Source: Mycobacterium sp. DL592 (GTDB lineage Bacteria > Actinomycetota > Actinomycetes > Mycobacteriales > Mycobacteriaceae). Taken from it: a stretch of DNA of 64,000 nt. The stretch is taken from contig NZ_CP050192.1 of assembly GCF_011694515.1 (NCBI RefSeq), forward strand, positions 4,906,527 through 4,970,526. Direction: 5' to 3'. Below are positions 4,474 through 56,680 of the stretch, piece by piece. The translations under genes and the position numbers were made by a program. The stretch's first letter is position 1. Every line of letters starts with the position of its first letter. Below the pieces are notes generated by a model. The model saw nothing but the letters and a program-made list of their open reading frames with translations. It was not told the DNA's origin and did no database searches.

Positions 4474-5553
4474 GTGCCAAGCCCGGTCGCGATCGTTCGC
4501 CGCGTCGCCGCCGCCTCGATGGCGGCGATCGCCTGCCTGACACTGGCCGCCACCACGGGCGCGCCGGTGGCGGTGGCCGACGGCCGCGATCAGTTGGCTC
4601 AGGCAATCGCGACGACGCGCGGCAGCTACCTCGTCTACAACTTCGGTGGCGGCTACCCCGCCCCGCTGCTCAATGCCGCTGGCAATTGGTACGAGATGAC
4701 CGACGGTGGTCACCTGATGATCATCAAGGGCGCCTCACAACGCCTGACTCCCCGGCTGCTCGTCGACACCCACACCGGCTACCAAGCGCGCTGCGAGAGC
4801 ACCCCCGGCGCGCGCACCCGTGAAGGACTCGTTCAAGCCTCCGAGACCTATTCCCCGCTGCAGGCCTGGCAGGCTCTCGGTCAGCCCACCATCGCCATCA
4901 ATGCCAATTTCTTCGATGTCCGCTCCCAGCAAGCGGGTTCATGGAAGACGACGGGCTGCAGTTCTCCTCTGGGCGCCTACGTCGACAACACCCGCGGGCA
5001 GGGCCGCGCCAATACCGCCGTCACCGGGACCATCGCCTACGCCGGAAAGCAGGCGCTGTCCGGAGGCGACGAAGTGTGGACAGCCCTGACGACGATGATC
5101 CTGCCGGTGGCCGGCGCCCCGTTCGTCGTGACACCCAAGTCGCCCGACGACTACGACGCCGCGTCGCCGGTGATCCAAGGCCTGATGGACAAAGGCACCA
5201 GGTTCGCCGCAGTCAGCGGCCTGAAGCTGCTGGCGCCGGGTGACACCGGGCAGATGAACGATCCGGGCCCCAGCGCGGCCCGCACGGCGTTGGCCTACGC
5301 CCGCGACAAGGACGAGATGTACATCTTCCAGGGCGGCAGTTACACCCCCGACCAGATTCAGGACCTGTTCCGCGGATTGGGAAGCGACACAGCCATTCTG
5401 CTCGACGGTGGCGGCTCGTCGGCGATCGTGCTGCGCCGCGATACCGGCGGCATGTGGGCGGGTGCCGGCGTGCCGAAGGGGTCCTGCGACACGATGCAGG
5501 TGCTCTGCGACTCGCGTGAGCGGGCACTGCCGAGTTGGCTTGCCTTCAGCTAG
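4474..5553 (+). CDS. Secreted phosphodiester glycosidase family protein (NAGPA domain)
   Basis: A 359-residue exported protein with a signal peptide at about residues 1-36 (RRVAAASMAAIACLTLA...AVADG). The mature part is a NAGPA/DUF2233 domain. Its hallmark C-terminal block includes ARTALAYARD, IFQGGSYTPDQIQDLFRGLG and LLDGGGSSAIV, where the DGGGSS loop is the family's active-site region. Related enzymes remove GlcNAc from phosphodiester-linked sugars such as teichoic acids or mannose-6-phosphate; the mycobacterial substrate is unknown. The GTG start has GAAAGGG 6 nt upstream. It is the last intact gene before a rearrangement scar upstream of rodA. Confidence 0.75.
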   Translation: MPSPVAIVRRVAAASMAAIACLTLAATTGAPVAVADGRDQLAQAIATTRGSYLVYNFGGGYPAPLLNAAGNWYEMTDGGHLMIIKGASQRLTPRLLVDTHTGYQARCESTPGARTREGLVQASETYSPLQAWQALGQPTIAINANFFDVRSQQAGSWKTTGCSSPLGAYVDNTRGQGRANTAVTGTIAYAGKQALSGGDEVWTALTTMILPVAGAPFVVTPKSPDDYDAASPVIQGLMDKGTRFAAVSGLKLLAPGDTGQMNDPGPSAARTALAYARDKDEMYIFQGGSYTPDQIQDLFRGLGSDTAILLDGGGSSAIVLRRDTGGMWAGAGVPKGSCDTMQVLCDSRERALPSWLAFS

Positions 5554-5606
5554 CTGTCGGGATGTGGCGGCCGTTTTTTGTCGGACCCTGTTGCGATGAT
5601 GGGGTC

Positions 5607-5852
5607 ATGTCTTCGTCGGCTGCGGTAGCCACTCCCAAGAAGCGCCTTGAGGTGCTCTTCGAGGAGTTGGCCGAGTTGGCCGGGCAGCGCAACGCCATCG
5701 ACGGCCGCATCGTCGACGTGGTCGCGCGGCACCGCGCACTACCCCGGCGCCCCCACCGAGCCCGTCGCCGACCGTCACCAATAGTGAAAGCGCCACGGCA
5801 GCAACGGAATCCGTTGTACCGCCCGCACCGCCTAGCCCGTCACCGACGGTAA
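5607..5852 (+). pseudogene. Truncated REP13E12-type (DUF222/HNH) gene, N-terminal fragment
   Basis: From the ATG at 5607 the frame reads MSSSAAVATPKKRLEVLFEEL and ELAGQRNAIDGRIVDVVA. This is the N-terminus of the mycobacterial 13E12 family, full-length proteins of about 400-550 residues with DUF222 and a C-terminal HNH nuclease domain. After about residue 40 (near 5727) similarity stops. The frame continues into unrelated Arg/Pro-rich codons that are out of frame with the downstream pstP-like sequence, ending at 5852. The 50 bp before the start also resemble the 5' region of such elements. Members are repetitive and are known recombination and phage-integration targets. Confidence 0.65.
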
Positions 5853-5908
5853 CCCAGTTGCCCGCGCCGCCGCAGAAGCCGGGTGTGGACTGCCGGGCGG
5901 CAGCATGA
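5745..5908 (+). pseudogene. C-terminal remnant resembling PstP phosphatase tail
   Basis: In the frame ending at TGA 5906-5908 the sequence reads as a Pro/Ser/Thr-rich tail with two PSPSPTVT units and the ending QLPAPPQKPGVDCRAAA. Its position fits PstP, the Ser/Thr phosphatase gene that precedes rodA in mycobacteria, and its stop overlaps the rodA start by ATGA as expected of that operon. No ATG, GTG or TTG occurs in this frame from the stop at 5648-5650 to the end, so the remnant cannot be translated by itself. The catalytic PP2C domain and membrane segment are absent. The assignment to PstP rests on position and tail composition. Confidence 0.6.
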
Positions 5909-7311
5909 GTACCCAACCGCAAGCCCCCGTGACCGTGGCGCCGGTCGCCCCGACCCGGCGCAACACCGAGTTGGCGCTGCTGATCTTCGCGACGCTGATC
6001 ACCGCGGTCGCGCTGATGATCGTGGAGGCCAATCAGGAGCAGGGGATCAGCTGGGATCTGGCCAGTTCCGTACTGGCTTTCCTGACCCTGTTCATCTGCG
6101 CGCACCTGGCGATCCGGCGCTATGCGCCCTACGCCGACCCGGTGCTGCTGCCCATCGTCACGCTGCTCAACGGACTCGGCCTGGTGATGATCCACCGGCT
6201 CGATCTGGTGCCCGGCGCGCTGGCGGCATCGGCCAAGGGCCCCAGTGACTCTCAGCAGATGTTGTGGACGCTCGTCGGTGTCGTCGGCTTCTCGTTGGTT
6301 CTCGTCTTCCTCAAAGACCACCGGATCCTGGCTCGCTACGGCTACGTCTTCGGTCTGGTCGGCCTGGTGCTGCTGGTCATTCCTGCGCTGCTGCCGGCCA
6401 GATTCTCCGAGACCAACGGTGCCAAGATCTGGATTCGGTTCCCGGGCTTCAGCATTCAGCCCGCCGAGTTCTCCAAGATCCTGTTGCTGATCTTCTTCGC
6501 CTCGGTCCTGGTGGCCAAGCGCAATCTGTTCACCAGCGCCGGCAAGCACGTCCTGGGGATGGACCTGCCCCGCCCGCGCGACCTGGCCCCGCTGCTGGTG
6601 GCATGGATCGCCTCGGTCGGAGTGATGGTGTTCGAGAAGGACCTCGGCACCTCACTGTTGCTGTACGCGTCGTTTCTGGTGATGGTCTACATCGCCACCG
6701 AGCGATTCAGCTGGGTTGCGATCGGCTTGACCTTGTTCGCCGCGGGCAGCGTGGTGGCCTACCACCTGTTCGGACATGTCCGGGTGCGCGTGCAGACCTG
6801 GCTGGATCCGTTCGCCGACCCCGAGGGCGCCGGCTATCAGATGGTGCAGTCGCAGTTCAGCTTCGCCACCGGCGGCATCTTCGGCACCGGTCTGGGTAAC
6901 GGCCAGCCCGGGACCGTGCCCGCTGCGTCGACCGACTTCATCACCGCCGCCGTCGGCGAAGAGCTGGGCCTGGTGGGCCTGGCCGGGGTGCTGCTGCTTT
7001 ACACCATCCTGATCCTGCGCGGCCTGCGCACCGCGATCGCGGTGCGCGACAGCTTCGGCAAGCTGCTGGCCGCGGGCCTGGCCTCCACTCTGTCCATCCA
7101 GTTGTTCATCGTCGTCGGCGGTGTCACCGGACTGATCCCGCTGACCGGGCTTACCACTCCGTGGATGTCCTACGGCGGCTCGTCGCTGGTTGCCAATTAC
7201 CTGCTGCTGGCGATCCTGGTGAAGATCTCCCATGCCGCGCGGCGGCCGATCATGACCAGCCCGCACACCCCGATCGCGGCGGCCAGCACCGAGGTGATCG
7301 AGCGCGTATGA
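5905..7311 (+). CDS. rodA: RodA, SEDS-family peptidoglycan glycosyltransferase
   Basis: A 468-residue polytopic inner-membrane protein that polymerises lipid II into glycan strands during cell elongation, working with the transpeptidase encoded next (pbpA). It has about ten to twelve hydrophobic segments. The SEDS signature regions include WIRFPGFSIQPAEFSK (near residue 180), EKDLGTSLLLY, and the conserved C-terminal GLIPLTGLTTPWMSYGGSS. The ATG at 5905 overlaps the stop of the pstP-like remnant, and its own stop overlaps the pbpA start (ATGA at 7308-7311). Because the remnant upstream is untranslated, the translational coupling seen in other mycobacteria is probably lost here. Confidence 0.95.
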   Translation: MSTQPQAPVTVAPVAPTRRNTELALLIFATLITAVALMIVEANQEQGISWDLASSVLAFLTLFICAHLAIRRYAPYADPVLLPIVTLLNGLGLVMIHRLDLVPGALAASAKGPSDSQQMLWTLVGVVGFSLVLVFLKDHRILARYGYVFGLVGLVLLVIPALLPARFSETNGAKIWIRFPGFSIQPAEFSKILLLIFFASVLVAKRNLFTSAGKHVLGMDLPRPRDLAPLLVAWIASVGVMVFEKDLGTSLLLYASFLVMVYIATERFSWVAIGLTLFAAGSVVAYHLFGHVRVRVQTWLDPFADPEGAGYQMVQSQFSFATGGIFGTGLGNGQPGTVPAASTDFITAAVGEELGLVGLAGVLLLYTILILRGLRTAIAVRDSFGKLLAAGLASTLSIQLFIVVGGVTGLIPLTGLTTPWMSYGGSSLVANYLLLAILVKISHAARRPIMTSPHTPIAAASTEVIERV

Positions 7312-8783
7312 ACACCTCACTGCGACGTATCTCGATCATGATTATGGCGTTGATCGTGCTCCTTCTGGTCAACGCGACGGTCACCCAGGTGTTCCGCGCC
7401 GACGGCCTGCGGGCCGACCCGCGTAACCAGCGGGTGCTGCTCGACGAGTACTCCCGGCAACGTGGGCAGATCACCGCGGGCGGACAGCTGCTGGCCTACT
7501 CGGTGTCCACCAGCGGCCACTACCGATTCCTGCGGGTGTACCCGAATCCCTTTGCCTACGCACCGGTTACGGGCTTCTACTCGCTGCGCTACTCCAGCAG
7601 CGGCCTGGAGCGCGCCGAGGACAGCATTCTCAACGGCTCCGATCAGCGCCTGTTCGGCCGCCGGCTGGCCGACTTCTTCACCGGCCGCGATCCGCGCGGC
7701 GGCAACGTCGACACGACGATCGTCCCGCGGGTGCAGCAGGCCGCGTGGGACGCGATGCAGCAGGGCTGCAATGGGCCGTGCAAGGGCTCGGTGGTGGCGC
7801 TGGAGCCGTCTACCGGCAAGATCCTGGCGATGGTGTCGGCGCCCTCGTATGACCCCAATCTGCTGGCCACCCATGACACCGAGGAGCAGGGCAAGGCCTG
7901 GCAGCAGTTGCGCGACGATCCCGGCTCGCCGTTGACCAACCGCGCCATCGCCGAAACGTTCCCACCCGGCTCCACGTTCAAGGTGATCACCACCGCCGCG
8001 GCACTGCAGGCCGGCGTCAGCGACACCGACCAGCTGACCGCAGCCCCGCAGATTCAGCTGCCCAACAGCACCGCGACCTTGGAGAACTACGGCGCCACCC
8101 CGTGCGGTGACGGCCCGACCGCCTCGCTGCGGGACGCGTTCGCCCGGTCCTGCAATACCGCTTTCGTCGAACTGGGTATCCGGGTAGGTGCCGAAGCGCT
8201 GCGCAGTACCGCGCAGGCGTTCGGGCTGGACAGTGCACCGGCGCCGATCCCGTTGGAGGTCGCCGAGTCCACCACCGGCCCGATCGCCGACGCCGCGGCG
8301 CTGGGAATGTCGAGTATGGGTCAGAAGGACGTGGCAGTGACACCGTTGCAGAACGCGGAGGTGGCAGCGACCATCGCCAACTCCGGGGTGTTGATGCAGC
8401 CCTACCTGGTCGACAGTCTCAAGGGGCCGGACCTGTCGAACATCGCCACCACCGCGCCGCAGGAGCAGCGGCGTGCGGTTTCTCCCCAGGTCGCCGCTAA
8501 GCTAACTGATTTGATGATCGGTGCCGAACAGCTCACCCAGCAAAAGGGAGCGATTCCGGGCGTCCAGATCGCCTCCAAGACCGGTACCGCCGAGCACGGC
8601 ACCGACCCGAGGAACACTCCACCGCATGCTTGGTACATCGCGTTCGCCCCAGCCCAGAATCCCAAGGTCGCGATCGCGGTGCTGATCGAGAACGGCGGCG
8701 ACCGGCTCTCGGCAACCGGCGGTTCGCTGGCCGCGCCGATCGGGCGGGCCACGATTGCGGCAGCTCTGCAGGGGGCATCGTGA
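7308..8783 (+). CDS. pbpA: PbpA, class B penicillin-binding protein (transpeptidase)
   Basis: A 491-residue D,D-transpeptidase that crosslinks peptidoglycan outside the membrane. One N-terminal transmembrane anchor (RRISIMIMALIVLLLVNATV) precedes the dimerisation region and the catalytic domain. The active-site motifs are STFK in PPGSTFKVITT (nucleophilic Ser, about residue 223), SCN in ARSCNTAFVELG, and KTG in SKTGTAEHG. The length equals that of M. tuberculosis PbpA. It is translationally coupled to rodA upstream; downstream its TGA overlaps a GTG that opens the first of two minicistrons before pknA. PknB phosphorylates PbpA in M. tuberculosis. Confidence 0.95.
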   Translation: MNTSLRRISIMIMALIVLLLVNATVTQVFRADGLRADPRNQRVLLDEYSRQRGQITAGGQLLAYSVSTSGHYRFLRVYPNPFAYAPVTGFYSLRYSSSGLERAEDSILNGSDQRLFGRRLADFFTGRDPRGGNVDTTIVPRVQQAAWDAMQQGCNGPCKGSVVALEPSTGKILAMVSAPSYDPNLLATHDTEEQGKAWQQLRDDPGSPLTNRAIAETFPPGSTFKVITTAAALQAGVSDTDQLTAAPQIQLPNSTATLENYGATPCGDGPTASLRDAFARSCNTAFVELGIRVGAEALRSTAQAFGLDSAPAPIPLEVAESTTGPIADAAALGMSSMGQKDVAVTPLQNAEVAATIANSGVLMQPYLVDSLKGPDLSNIATTAPQEQRRAVSPQVAAKLTDLMIGAEQLTQQKGAIPGVQIASKTGTAEHGTDPRNTPPHAWYIAFAPAQNPKVAIAVLIENGGDRLSATGGSLAAPIGRATIAAALQGAS

Positions 8784-8818
8784 GTCCCCGCAGCCGAGCG
8801 AAGCGAGGCAAGCCATGA
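8780..8818 (+). CDS. Minicistron 1 (12 residues) linking pbpA to pknA
   Basis: GTG at 8780 overlaps the pbpA stop by four bases (GTGA). The frame encodes [12 protein letters not shown] and stops at 8816-8818, overlapping the next ATG at 8815. It is a product of the 35-bp repeat. The peptide is basic and probably has no function of its own; the likely role is to pass ribosomes along the mRNA by termination-reinitiation. Confidence 0.4.
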
Positions 8819-8849
8819 GCCCGCGCAGGCGAGCGAAGCGAGGCAAGCA
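8780..8849 (+). repeat. 35-bp tandem repeat (two copies), MIRU-like
   Basis: Two 35-bp units (8780-8814, 8815-8849) differ at only a few positions and share the core GAGCGAAGCGAGGCAAGC; the first 12 bases recur at 8850-8861. Each unit boundary falls on an overlapping start/stop (GTGA at 8780, ATGA at 8815 and 8850). From memory, M. tuberculosis MIRUs insert at such DTGA overlaps and carry small ORFs. This one is shorter than the described MIRU classes. Confidence 0.75.
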
Positions 8850-8853
8850 ATGA
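8815..8853 (+). CDS. Minicistron 2 (12 residues) linking pbpA to pknA
   Basis: ATG at 8815 overlaps minicistron 1 (ATGA). It encodes [12 protein letters not shown] and stops at 8851-8853, overlapping the pknA ATG at 8850. The peptide is nearly identical to minicistron 1, as expected of a tandem duplication of 35 bp (39-nt ORF minus a 4-nt overlap). Confidence 0.4.
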
Positions 8854-10088
8854 GCCCGCGCGTAGGAGTGACGCTGTCCGGCCGGTACCGGCTGCAGCGG
8901 CTCATTGCCACCGGCGGCATGGGCCAGGTGTGGGAGGCCGTCGACAGCCGGCTGGGCCGGCGGGTGGCCGTGAAGGTGCTCAAGGCGGAGTACTCCTCTG
9001 ACCCCGAGTTCGTCGAACGGTTCCGCGCTGAGGCGCGCACCGTAGCGATGCTCAACCACCCCGGGATCGCGGCCGTGCACGACTACGGCGAAACCGACAT
9101 GGACGGCGAGGGCCGCACCGCCTATCTGGTGATGGAGCTGGTCAACGGCGAGCCGCTGAACTCCGTCATCAAGCGCACCGGCCGGCTCTCGCTGCGCCAC
9201 GCCCTGGACATGCTGGAGCAGACCGGCCGCGCGCTGCAGGTGGCGCACGCCGCCGGGCTGGTGCACCGCGACGTCAAGCCCGGCAACATCCTGATCACCC
9301 CGACCGGCCAGGTGAAGCTGACCGACTTCGGTATCGCCAAGGCCGTCGACGCCGCCCCCGTCACCCAGACGGGCATGGTGATGGGCACCGCCCAGTACAT
9401 CGCGCCCGAACAGGCCCTGGGCCACGACGCCACCGCCGCCAGCGACGTCTACGCGTTGGGAGTTGTTGGCTACGAAGCAGTTTCGGGTAAGCGCCCGTTC
9501 GTCGGTGACGGCGCCTTGACGGTGGCGATGAAGCACATCAAGGAGACGCCTGCGCCGTTGCCGGCCGACCTGCCGCCAAATGTGCGAGAACTCATCGAGA
9601 TCACCCTGGTCAAGAACCCGGGCATGCGTTACCGCAACGGCGGCCAGTTCGCCGACGCGGTCGGCGCGGTGCGCGCCGGTCGCCGTCCGCCGCGGCCGAA
9701 CTCCGCACCGACCATCCGGGCCACCCCCGCGGCGATCCCGGGCAGTTCGCCGCGCCTGCCTGCGCCCGTCCCCGTCGCTGCGCCCCGGCCACGTCCCGCG
9801 ACGGGCGGGCACCGCACACAGCCGGCCCGACGCACCTTCTCCTCGGGTCAGCGGGCGCTGCTGTGGGCGGCCGGTGTGCTGGGCGCGCTCGCGATCATCA
9901 GCGCGATCCTGATCGTGCTGGCCGACCGCGACCGGCGTAACACCCCGCCGGTGCAACGCACCGAGACCGAGACGGTGACGCCGAGCCCCACCGCGCAGCC
10001 GGCCCCGTCGGCCTGGGACGGAAATGATCTGGTGATCCGGTTGGCCACGATCGAACACGCCTACCCCGACGACGAGCAACCGCGATGA
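8850..10088 (+). CDS. pknA: PknA, transmembrane Ser/Thr protein kinase
   Basis: A 412-residue eukaryotic-like kinase that controls cell shape, division and peptidoglycan synthesis. The kinase domain (residues about 12-275) has the Gly-rich loop ATGGMGQVW, catalytic Lys in VAVKVLK, the [10 protein letters not shown] catalytic loop, and the DFG motif in LTDFGIA. A Pro/Arg-rich juxtamembrane stretch leads to one transmembrane helix (near residues 332-356). The extracellular tail is short and has no PASTA repeats, unlike PknB. The start at 8850 matches the conserved [14 protein letters not shown]-terminus. Its stop overlaps the pknB start (ATGA, 10085-10088). Confidence 0.93.
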
Positions 10089-11965
10089 CCACCCCGCAGC
10101 ACCTGTCGGACCGCTACGAGCTGGGCGAGATCATCGGCTTCGGCGGCATGTCCGAGGTGCATCTGGCCCGCGACACCCGTCTGCACCGCGACGTGGCGGT
10201 CAAGGTGCTGCGCGCTGACCTGGCCCGCGACCCCAGTTTCTATCTGCGGTTCCGCCGTGAAGCGCAGAACGCCGCGGCACTGAACCACCCGGCGATCGTG
10301 GCCGTCTACGACACCGGCGAAGCCGAGACGACCGCCGGACCGCTGCCCTACATCGTGATGGAGTACGTCGACGGGGTGACCCTGCGCGACATCGTGCACA
10401 CCGACGGTCCGATGCCGCCGCGGCGGGCCATCGAGATCATCGCCGACGCCTGCCAGGCGCTGAATTTCAGCCACCAGCACGGCATCATCCATCGCGACGT
10501 CAAGCCGGCCAACATCATGATCTCCAAGACCGGCGCGGTGAAGGTGATGGACTTCGGCATCGCCCGCGCCCTGGCCGACGCCGGCAACAGCGTCACCCAA
10601 ACGGCCGCAGTGATAGGCACCGCCCAGTACCTGTCCCCGGAGCAGGCCCGCGGCGAGTCCGTCGACGCCCGCTCCGATGTCTACTCCCTGGGCTGCGTGC
10701 TCTACGAAATCCTCACCGGCGAGCCGCCTTTCATCGGTGATTCGCCGGTGGCGGTGGCCTATCAGCACGTCCGCGAAGATCCGGTGCCGCCGTCACAGAA
10801 GCATTCGGGCATCTCTCCGGAGCTCGATGCTGTCGTCCTCAAGGCGCTGGCCAAGAACCCGGACAACCGCTACCAGACGGCCGCCGAGATGCGCACCGAC
10901 CTGGTGCGGGTGCACAACGGCGAGGCGCCGGAGGCACCCAAGGTGTTCACCCCGGCCGAACGCACCTCGATGATGCACGCGGCCCCGCGGGTGCCGTCGA
11001 GCACCGAGACCACCGATGAGATTGCGCAGCCCGGTCAGTTCGTCGAGCGGGACCGGTCCGGCGGTTCGATCGGACGCTGGCTGATCGCCGTCGCGGTGCT
11101 GGCGATTCTCACCGTCGTGGTGACGGTCGCGATCAACATGGTCAGCGGCAACCCCCGCAATGTGCAGGTGCCCGACGTGCGGGGGCAAGCCGGCGCCGAC
11201 GCGATCGCGACGCTGCAGAACAAGGGTTTCAAGATCCACACCAACCAAAAGCCCGATAACACCGTGCCGCCGGACAAGGTGATCGACACCGATCCCCCCG
11301 CCAACTCGATGGCGGCCGCCGGTGACGATATCGCGATCAACGTCTCGACGGGACCCAAGCAAGTCGAAGTCCCGGACTGCACCACACTCAGTTACGCAGA
11401 TTGCGTAAAGAAGCTCAGAGACGCCGGCTTCGGCAAGTTCAAGGAGACGGACTCGCCCTCCAAGCCGGAGGACAAGGACAAAGTTGTGTCCACTGTCCCG
11501 CCTGCCAACCAGCTTTCAGCGATCACCAACGAAATCACCATCGTCGTCGGCAACGGGCCGCAGACCGCGGCGGTGCCTGTGATCTCCGGTCAAACCCAAG
11601 ACGTCGCTGGACAGATCCTCACAGCGTCGGGCTTCCTCAAGTTCTTCCCAGTTCCCGTCGACAGCACCGAACCCAGCGGTCAGGTTGTCGGCTCGGACCC
11701 GGCGGCGGGACAGGTCGTTCCCCAGGACACGGTGGTCCAGATCCAGGTGTCCAAGGGCAACCAATTCGTGATGCCCGACCTCAAGGGTCAGTTCTGGACC
11801 GACGCCGAACCCCGGCTACGGAGCCTGGGCTGGACCGGCGGGCTGGACAAGGGCCCCAATGTCGACAACAGCGGCGTCCGCAGCAACGGCGTCGTGACGC
11901 AGAGCCCACCGGCCGGTACCCCGGTGACCTTCGGGGCGACGATCACGCTCAGCTTCGCGTCGTAG
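10085..11965 (+). CDS. pknB: PknB, PASTA-domain Ser/Thr protein kinase
   Basis: A 626-residue receptor kinase, essential in well-studied mycobacteria, that senses muropeptides or lipid II and phosphorylates CwlM, MurJ-type proteins, PbpA and others. The kinase domain (about 1-280) has [25 protein letters not shown] and MDFGIA. A linker with likely autophosphorylation sites is followed by a transmembrane helix (near 332-352, [20 protein letters not shown]) and four extracellular PASTA repeats of about 66 residues each to the C-terminus. It closes the rodA operon. It converges on the trpG-like gene with only 3 bp between stops. Confidence 0.95.
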
Positions 11966-55918: not shown

Positions 55919-56680
55919 TCACCGGGGGCGGACGACGACCTGATGGGTGTGGGCGTCGGGCGGGGTGGCGATCACCTCGGCGACGATGCGCGCCACGGTC
56001 TTCGGCGACAGGAAGCGCGACGGGTCGTACTCGCCGCCCTCGTAGGCAACCAGGTCCTGCTGCATCTCGGTGTCGACTCGGCCCGGGTGCACGCTGGTGA
56101 CGCGCAGGCTCGGCTCGTCGGCGCGCAGCGAATCGGCGAACGCGCGCTGGGCGAACTTGCTCGCCGAGTACGCCGCCAGGCCGGGTGAGACGTTGAGGCC
56201 GGCGCCGGAGTTGATGAACACCACCTGGCCGCGGGCTGCGCGCAGGGCCGGCAGCAGCGCCAGGGTGAGCGCGACGGGACCGGTCACATTGATCTCGAAG
56301 CTGGCCCGCCACTGCTCGGGGATCGACTCGTCGAACCGCCCCGGGTACGCCACTCCCGCGTTGTGTACCAGCACATCCAGCTCGGCCAGCGGTTCGGCCG
56401 CCGCCTCGATGGACTCGGGATCGGCCAGATCGAGCGGCCAGGTGGTGGCGCCCAGCCGTGTGGCGAGTGCGTCCAACCGCGCCGACGGCCGGCCTGCCAG
56501 CAGCAGCGTGTGGGTTGGTGCCAAAGCCTCGGCGATCGCCGACCCGATCCCACCGCCCGCCCCGGTGATCAAAGCTGTCCCACTCCCCGGGTCGCTGCGC
56601 TCCTGCCCGCCGGTGTAGTTCCCCGGGTCGCTGCGCTCCTGCCCGCCGGTCCTATTCCCCGGATCCTCTTCGCTCGGCAT
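55919..56680 (-). CDS. Short-chain dehydrogenase/reductase with repeat-extended N-terminus
   Basis: A 253-residue SDR. The Rossmann motif ITGAGGGIGSAIAEAL begins only near residue 39; NAGVAYPG and the catalytic Ser/Tyr/Lys (INSGAG, AAYSASKFAQRAF) follow. The substrate is unknown. The N-terminal 35 residues are an unusual extension made of near-identical units DPGNRTGGQERS and DPGNYTGGQERS, produced by a 36-bp DNA repeat. The ATG at 56680 (MPSEEDPG) is the best start; the true ancestral start may have been just before GTALITGA. It is divergent from the glucosylglycerate hydrolase gene, whose start lies 53 bp away. Confidence 0.8.
   Translation of the reverse strand: MPSEEDPGNRTGGQERSDPGNYTGGQERSDPGSGTALITGAGGGIGSAIAEALAPTHTLLLAGRPSARLDALATRLGATTWPLDLADPESIEAAAEPLAELDVLVHNAGVAYPGRFDESIPEQWRASFEINVTGPVALTLALLPALRAARGQVVFINSGAGLNVSPGLAAYSASKFAQRAFADSLRADEPSLRVTSVHPGRVDTEMQQDLVAYEGGEYDPSRFLSPKTVARIVAEVIATPPDAHTHQVVVRPR
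56585..56668. repeat. 36-bp in-frame tandem repeat in the SDR 5' end
   Basis: Units at 56585-56620 and 56621-56656 share 30 leading bases (CCCCGGGTCGCTGCGCTCCT and then GCCCGCCGGT) and differ in the last six; a third partial unit starts at 56657. On the coding strand each unit holds GAGCGCAGCGACCCGG, similar to the GAGCGAAGCGAGG core of the pbpA-pknA repeat. Confidence 0.75.

Follow-up and report, generated by a model that had tools for sequence, protein, structure and literature searches.

Two tandem 35-bp units at the pbpA–pknA junction of Mycobacterium sp. DL592 as putative MIRU-derived coupling adapters

Organization of the pbpA–pknA Junction

The stretch of 64,000 nucleotides analysed here (contig NZ_CP050192.1, positions 4,906,527 to 4,970,526), hereafter the window, carries the genes rodA, pbpA, pknA and pknB of Mycobacterium sp. 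DL592 (Table 1). The rodA–pbpA and pknA–pknB junctions are joined directly by ATGA overlaps. Between pbpA and pknA (8780–8853) lie two 35-bp units, which form two 13-codon ORFs with three exact 4-nt stop/start overlaps, and the order along the DNA is pbpA, GTGA, 35-bp unit, ATGA, 35-bp unit, ATGA, pknA. The original prediction had described two tandem units read as two small ORFs and linked to each other and to both genes by overlaps of exactly four bases; direct reading of the sequence bears out both statements.

The units are direct 35-nt copies with 89% identity, and the score of the two-unit array (134) is the second highest among the 17 repeat rows of the window. Each unit is bounded by RTGA or DTGA, and its ORF overlaps both flanking genes. 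Both minicistrons have the RTGA stop/start overlap of translationally coupled small ORFs. The first 12 nt of pknA, ATGAGCCCGCGC, are similar to those with which each unit begins, and a target-site duplication is proposed as the origin of this likeness. A 36-bp tandem repeat of 2.4 copies, containing GGGTCGCTGCGCTCCTGCC, is located at 56577–56662 of the window and is possibly another mycobacterial short repeat.

Table 1. Features of the rodA–pknB region of the window.
Feature	Position	Strand	Evidence and remarks
rodA	5905..7311	+	Pfam FTSW_RODA_SPOVE 3.1e-95; direct ATGA coupling to pbpA (control junction)
pbpA (penicillin-binding protein A)	7308..8783	+	Pfam Transpeptidase 6.6e-70, PBP_dimer_2; start overlaps rodA stop by 4 nt
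Shine-Dalgarno-like AGGGGG in the 3' end of pbpA, 4 nt 5' of the minicistron 1 start	8770..8775	+	Sequence; anti-SD energies of such sites in relatives
GTGA overlap	8780..8783		Sequence
pbpA stop TGA	8781..8783	+	Sequence
Minicistron 1, GTG...TGA, 13 codons including stop, 12 residues	8780..8818	+	Sequence; junction comparison
35-bp repeat unit 1	8781..8815	+	Repeat finders
Conserved core of unit 1, CGAGCGAAGCGAGGC, with GAGG Shine-Dalgarno 6 nt 5' of the next ATG	8795..8809	+	Sequence; core conservation; anti-SD
ATGA overlap	8815..8818		Sequence
Minicistron 2, ATG...TGA, 13 codons including stop, 12 residues	8815..8853	+	Sequence; junction comparison
35-bp repeat unit 2	8816..8850	+	Repeat finders
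Conserved core of unit 2, 15 nt identical to the core of unit 1	8830..8844	+	Sequence; core conservation
ATGA overlap	8850..8853		Sequence
pknA, ATG at 8850	8850..10088	+	Pfam Pkinase 5.4e-46
pknB	10085..11965	+	Pfam Pkinase and four PASTA stretches; direct ATGA coupling to pknA (control junction)

Upstream of rodA (window 4474–5908), pstP is missing and the neighbouring gene is that of a phosphodiester glycosidase (PF09992). It is followed by a stretch that presumably resembles the start of a 13E12-type repeat protein. The segment 5735–5905, joined to rodA by ATGA, matches only the C-terminal 58 residues of PstP from a relative. A PstP query against the single-contig genome gave the tail match only, and PP2C_2 (PF13672), which does match the relative's PstP, had no match in it, so that the catalytic gene was found by neither search. 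FHA matches were absent from the window and four in number elsewhere in the genome. The genome apparently encodes PknA and PknB without PstP, an assembly error being the alternative; a mycobacterium of this kind would be surprising.

Distribution of the 35-bp Unit

A search for further copies at other DTGA sites of the genome had been proposed. The 12-mer core GAGCGAAGCGAG occurs exactly twice in the genome, both times at the pbpA–pknA junction (the reversed control is the same word and hence uninformative). For the 18-mer GAGCGAAGCGAGGCAAGC, a search of all 5,100,839 bases likewise found two exact copies, both at this junction; with up to three mismatches, it gives seven matches (two exact, five with three mismatches) versus six for the reversed control, and the array is not attributed to chance.

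Homologous units are found at the same junction in other species. The exact 18-mer CGAGCGAAGCGAGGCRAG has 33 matches in 24 of 198 genus genomes, one to three per genome, and every one of them sits 2–73 nt 5' of pknA. When the 74-base array was used as a DNA query against the same genomes, with at most four candidates scored per genome, all 28 matches at E ≤ 1e-6 (27 genomes) were at pknA, and the best off-site match, in genome G167, had an E-value of 4e-6. Among 298 genomes of the order, including that of DL592, the 18-mer is present in four, three of the genus and one outside it (G304), where it lies away from any pbpA–pknA-like junction. Off-site relatives of the unit are weaker only: the match in G167 is a similar 30-nt stretch between genes and not at a start, and candidates in G187, G050 and G143 appear to be chance matches or coding repeats. 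The 35-bp unit is resident at one junction and not interspersed. A dispersed repeat was rejected on the same two grounds, the restriction of the DL592 copies to this site and the position of all 33 exact matches at pknA.

A 35-bp-like stretch bounded by TTGA and GTGA was observed in G076 (C2, about 428534, locus L389) at an apparent pgk–tpiA junction, where it apparently prolongs the upstream reading frame.

Inserts at the pbpA–pknA Junction across the Genus

The junction was readable in 194 of the 198 genus genomes; those left out are G182 and G015 (contig ends), G032 (locus L073, where the pbpA stop is absent from the contig) and G008 (PknA match absent at E 1e-90). A set of 80 named loci, which overlaps the genus sample in part, was tallied apart, duplicate loci L038–L067 being excluded. 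No insert is present in 113 of the 194 junctions: 110 have a direct 4-nt overlap, one has a 1-nt overlap, and in two the stop and start abut. In the remaining 81, stop and start are separated by inserts of 16 to 193 nt, which belong to several families: 35-bp units (one to three copies), 77-bp MIRU-length units, units of about 27 bp (one to four copies, in some cases fused in frame), a 61/82 family and further types. The comparison of relatives suggested by the original prediction gave 0–3 copies of the 35-bp unit among species. Lack of other genomic copies together with constant length had been named as what would count against it; the former was indeed found, but the length varies.

All 81 inserts are spanned by an unbroken chain, made up of 91 minicistrons of 7–66 residues, in which every link is a 4-nt RTGA overlap. 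The same applies to the 38 inserts among the 80 named loci and to all 97 distinct inserts. Shifted or fused units in G043, G184, G042, G052, G111 and G054 leave the chain intact with altered peptides, so that a frameshifted unit such as that of G043 changes the peptide while the relay stays. With the frame randomised, the chain would be kept with p of about 0.12–0.37 per insert cluster (40 clusters), with a summed log10 of −20.9; with length kept, the sum is −10.9 (40 clusters, zero counts floored at 1/600). The clusters are not fully independent and may share ancestry, and the summed values therefore overstate independence. Moreover, an RTGA-to-RTGA insertion with target duplication is coupled at birth, so part of the chain retention follows by construction. 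Retention of the chain at pbpA–pknA inserts is nevertheless strongly supported, and the junction inserts taken together suggest that selection keeps the hand-over and not the peptide.

The presence of an insert is labile. A FastTree tree built on flanking coding sequence (274 rows) implies at least 32 changes of presence or absence and at least 62 of state, the state labels being loose motif matches of which a few are doubtful (e.g., G183, G120). Within close pairs, the difference in insert length is a multiple of 3, or else 35 or 77 nt; some pairs oppose a whole insert of 50, 53, 65 or 71 nt to an empty junction, and one pair differs by 1 nt, two units being fused. The sister record Mycobacterium sp. 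M26 is without the unit, and its pknA starts with GTG, like the first unit of the window, a state that would fit loss by recombination between direct repeats. The comparison of copy number is one between species; nearest to a within-species case are two records that both bear the name M. peregrinum, whose inserts are not the same and whose four-fold sites differ by 7.9%. Two records titled as Bifidobacterium breve MAGs (L202, L204) hold mycobacterial pbpA–pknA loci and are probably mislabelled bins.

This lability, together with the 113 junctions that do without an insert, is what one would expect of a selfish or neutral MIRU relic, targeted to RTGA, harmless as coupling is automatically kept, and devoid of function, with copy number as slippage noise. 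A published description agrees with it, in which MIRUs insert at start codons, are coupled at −4 and affect expression little (PMC12548453). However, random indels of 1–9 nt leave the chain intact in 33% of cases with one unit and 49% with two units, yet all 81 inserts are intact, and we regard a relic of this sort as unlikely. A variant in which presence is neutral and purifying selection acts solely against breakage is possible.

Neighbouring Junctions

The two adjacent couplings served as controls. Among the 80 named loci, 78 were readable at each (by motif, then by the RodA frame with tblastn in the case of rodA–pbpA). The rodA–pbpA spacing is −4 in 77 and −1 in one; that of pknA–pknB is −4 in 71, −1 in five and +2 in two. 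Inserts were found in none of these 156 readable cases versus 38 of 80 at pbpA–pknA (Fisher 2e-14). At pstP–rodA, where the window itself is rearranged, 40 loci with frames assigned by tblastn included 36 direct junctions, three with an insert (all chained) and one that was unreadable. As the junction counts show, inserts gather at the boundary between the rodA–pbpA and pknA–pknB pairs and are rarer at pstP–rodA. We infer that the members of each pair would need fixed ratios. The three pstP–rodA inserts (L348, L381, L383) are MIRU-like in G098 and similar to the 61/82 family in G012 and G043; the latter two indicate that this family may occupy a second site.

Shine-Dalgarno Signals and the Conserved Core

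The median anti-SD energy in the 20 nt 5' of pknA is −10.8 kcal/mol without an insert (113 junctions) and −8.4 kcal/mol with one (81), compared with −3.0 kcal/mol for random coding 20-mers (n = 970). GAGG or GGAGG stands six nt 5' of the pknA start in 51 of the 81 inserts, and a Shine-Dalgarno word of at least three bases is absent in three. According to these figures, most inserts supply their own Shine-Dalgarno, weaker than the displaced one.

The core of the 35-bp unit is conserved at the nucleotide level. In the 30 genomes where a 35-bp unit comes last, positions 16–30 differ in 3.9% of comparisons versus 43.6% at flanking four-fold sites, a core value biased low by the choice of units for their likeness; positions 5–12 differ in 34.7%. 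In all 24 distinct gap-31 junctions, taken without selection by likeness, the core differs in 12.3% and four-fold sites in 44.7%. Both contrasts speak against a neutral relic. The Shine-Dalgarno accounts for positions 26–29 of the unit. The conservation is explained only partly in this way, since selection for linkage irrespective of the peptide does not account for positions 16–25.

The encoded 12-residue basic peptide (SPRxRAKRGKQ-like) might itself be functional, and RAKRG is well conserved among 35-bp units. However, wobble positions 18, 24 and 27 are invariant among the 30 carriers, which is unexpected from selection on the peptide alone. Function of the peptide is further disfavoured by the retention of frameshifted units with different peptides and by the unrelated peptides that other families encode at the same junction, and we consider it highly improbable.

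The core could also be a nucleic-acid element (an RNA structure, a binding site or a recombination site) to which the ORFs are secondary. Conservation far beyond that of four-fold sites, wobble positions included, would suit such an element, and a small hairpin, C-GA-GC-GAA-GC-GA-G, with tandem G-A pairs can be drawn in the core. However, the core folds no better than its shuffles (RNA z 0.08, DNA z 0.42), and a G at unit position 15, as in unit 2 of the window, abolishes the drawn lower stem; RNA or DNA structure was rejected as the role of the core on these grounds. Families without the core still keep the chain, and a primary nucleic-acid element appears quite unlikely.

Relationship to 77-bp MIRUs

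MIRUs, mycobacterial interspersed repetitive units, have lengths of 77–101 or 53 bp. To our knowledge, the 35-bp locus at pbpA–pknA is not a MIRU-VNTR typing locus. The class I MIRU is 77 nt long according to PMC4128351. A 77-bp unit of G173, taken at its pknA junction, gave matches (E ≤ 1e-6) in 58 of the 198 genus genomes; most are not at pknA, and three belong to the DL592 genome, at most four candidates being scored per genome. The three DL592 elements (G000 C1) differ from each other: that at 4526946 occupies an RTGA site and is chained, that at 3525779 is 76 bp long and occupies an RTGA site unchained, and that at 464421 is a partial match.

Twenty-five dispersed elements were examined, namely 23 of 30 loci (seven at pknA being left out) and two from DL592. 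RTGA is present at both ends in 21, of which 17 are chained to the next gene, versus 81 of 81 at the pknA junction (Fisher 0.0014, or 4e-6 if unparsed elements are counted as broken). The first bases of the dispersed elements match the start of the next gene at 4.62 of 8 positions versus 3.05 when permuted, and none of 5000 permutations reached this value. The window units and pknA have RTGAGYCCSCGC in common, start-copying being established statistically for the dispersed 77-bp units only. Beyond its first 9 nt, the 35-bp unit matches the two ends of the best 77-bp reference at 19–21 of 26 positions versus about 13.5 for shuffles (p from <0.001 to 0.006 for four 35-bp units), 42 bp of the middle being absent; this comparison covers 26 nt and five selected dispersed references.

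The 35-bp unit is plausibly a shortened MIRU, with a 42-bp internal deletion as the simplest history that the matching ends would allow. Like MIRUs, it has a short ORF coupled through RTGA to both neighbours; its start resembles that of the next gene, and its ends are similar to those of the 77-bp references. In addition, other species have 77-bp units at pbpA–pknA, and such units also occupy RTGA sites at other loci, DL592 included. It differs in being 35 bp long instead of 77, restricted to one junction and conserved in its core. The original designation of the unit as MIRU-like thus stands for its coupling-preserving behaviour but not for an interspersed distribution, and the unit is one of several insert families at the junction. 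Tandem copy number varies as in MIRU-VNTRs; however, the unit is shorter, and its variation was seen between species.

Discussion

The reading that we favour, with a probability of about 0.7, is that the two units are MIRU-derived coupling adapters that carry a Shine-Dalgarno of their own and reside where the rodA–pbpA pair meets the pknA–pknB pair. The history would begin with an ancestral 77-bp MIRU entering the junction at the RTGA shared by the pbpA stop and the pknA start. A copy of the first ~10 nt of pknA would have been placed at the left end of the element, giving it a short ORF with a 4-nt overlap on either side. An internal loss of 42 bp (14 codons) would have followed; what is left in the 35-bp unit is a start codon, a GAGG Shine-Dalgarno placed 6 nt 5' of the start that comes next, and a stop that overlaps this second start. 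Since then, the unit has probably been inherited in place, its copy number shifting by slippage between direct repeats. In vivo, ribosomes that finish PbpA would initiate anew on one minicistron after the other and lastly on pknA; the peptides would be largely disposable, and selection would keep the unbroken relay. Copy number might also alter PknA dosage. The weaker Shine-Dalgarno 5' of pknA in junctions with inserts counts against this reading.

Parts of this scheme have precedents. Shell et al. 2015 (PMC4633059) describe mycobacterial small ORFs linked by RTGA to the next gene and propose that the linkage is under stronger selection than the peptide. The pbpA–pknA minicistrons share this link; however, the coupled ORFs analysed in that study start leaderless transcripts, whereas those described here are intra-operon, tandem and placed between two large genes. 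Coupling by MIRUs and selection for linkage over peptide had thus already been proposed. The open-access literature searched, outside which most subscription papers lie, contained no paper joining MIRU with pbpA and pknA, and neither the 35-bp unit nor a junction survey or boundary pattern of this kind was found in it.

We tentatively extend the adapters to a further possibility, in which the junction is an evolvable ratio valve between RodA–PbpA and PknA–PknB and the 15-nt core is a dedicated re-initiation element beyond the Shine-Dalgarno. If this is true, the internal coupling of the pairs would remain uninterrupted, while relay minicistrons would be recruited, shortened, duplicated and discarded at the boundary and would set how many ribosomes go from the cell-wall synthesis genes to the kinase genes. 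With many inserts at one junction, no broken chain among those readable and two insert-free neighbours, the locus is a natural experiment on translational coupling. It makes testable the idea that re-initiation is a means by which mycobacteria adjust the dosage of kinases relative to that of cell-wall enzymes. It also suggests that a conserved operon can take in a mobile repeat as a resident component.
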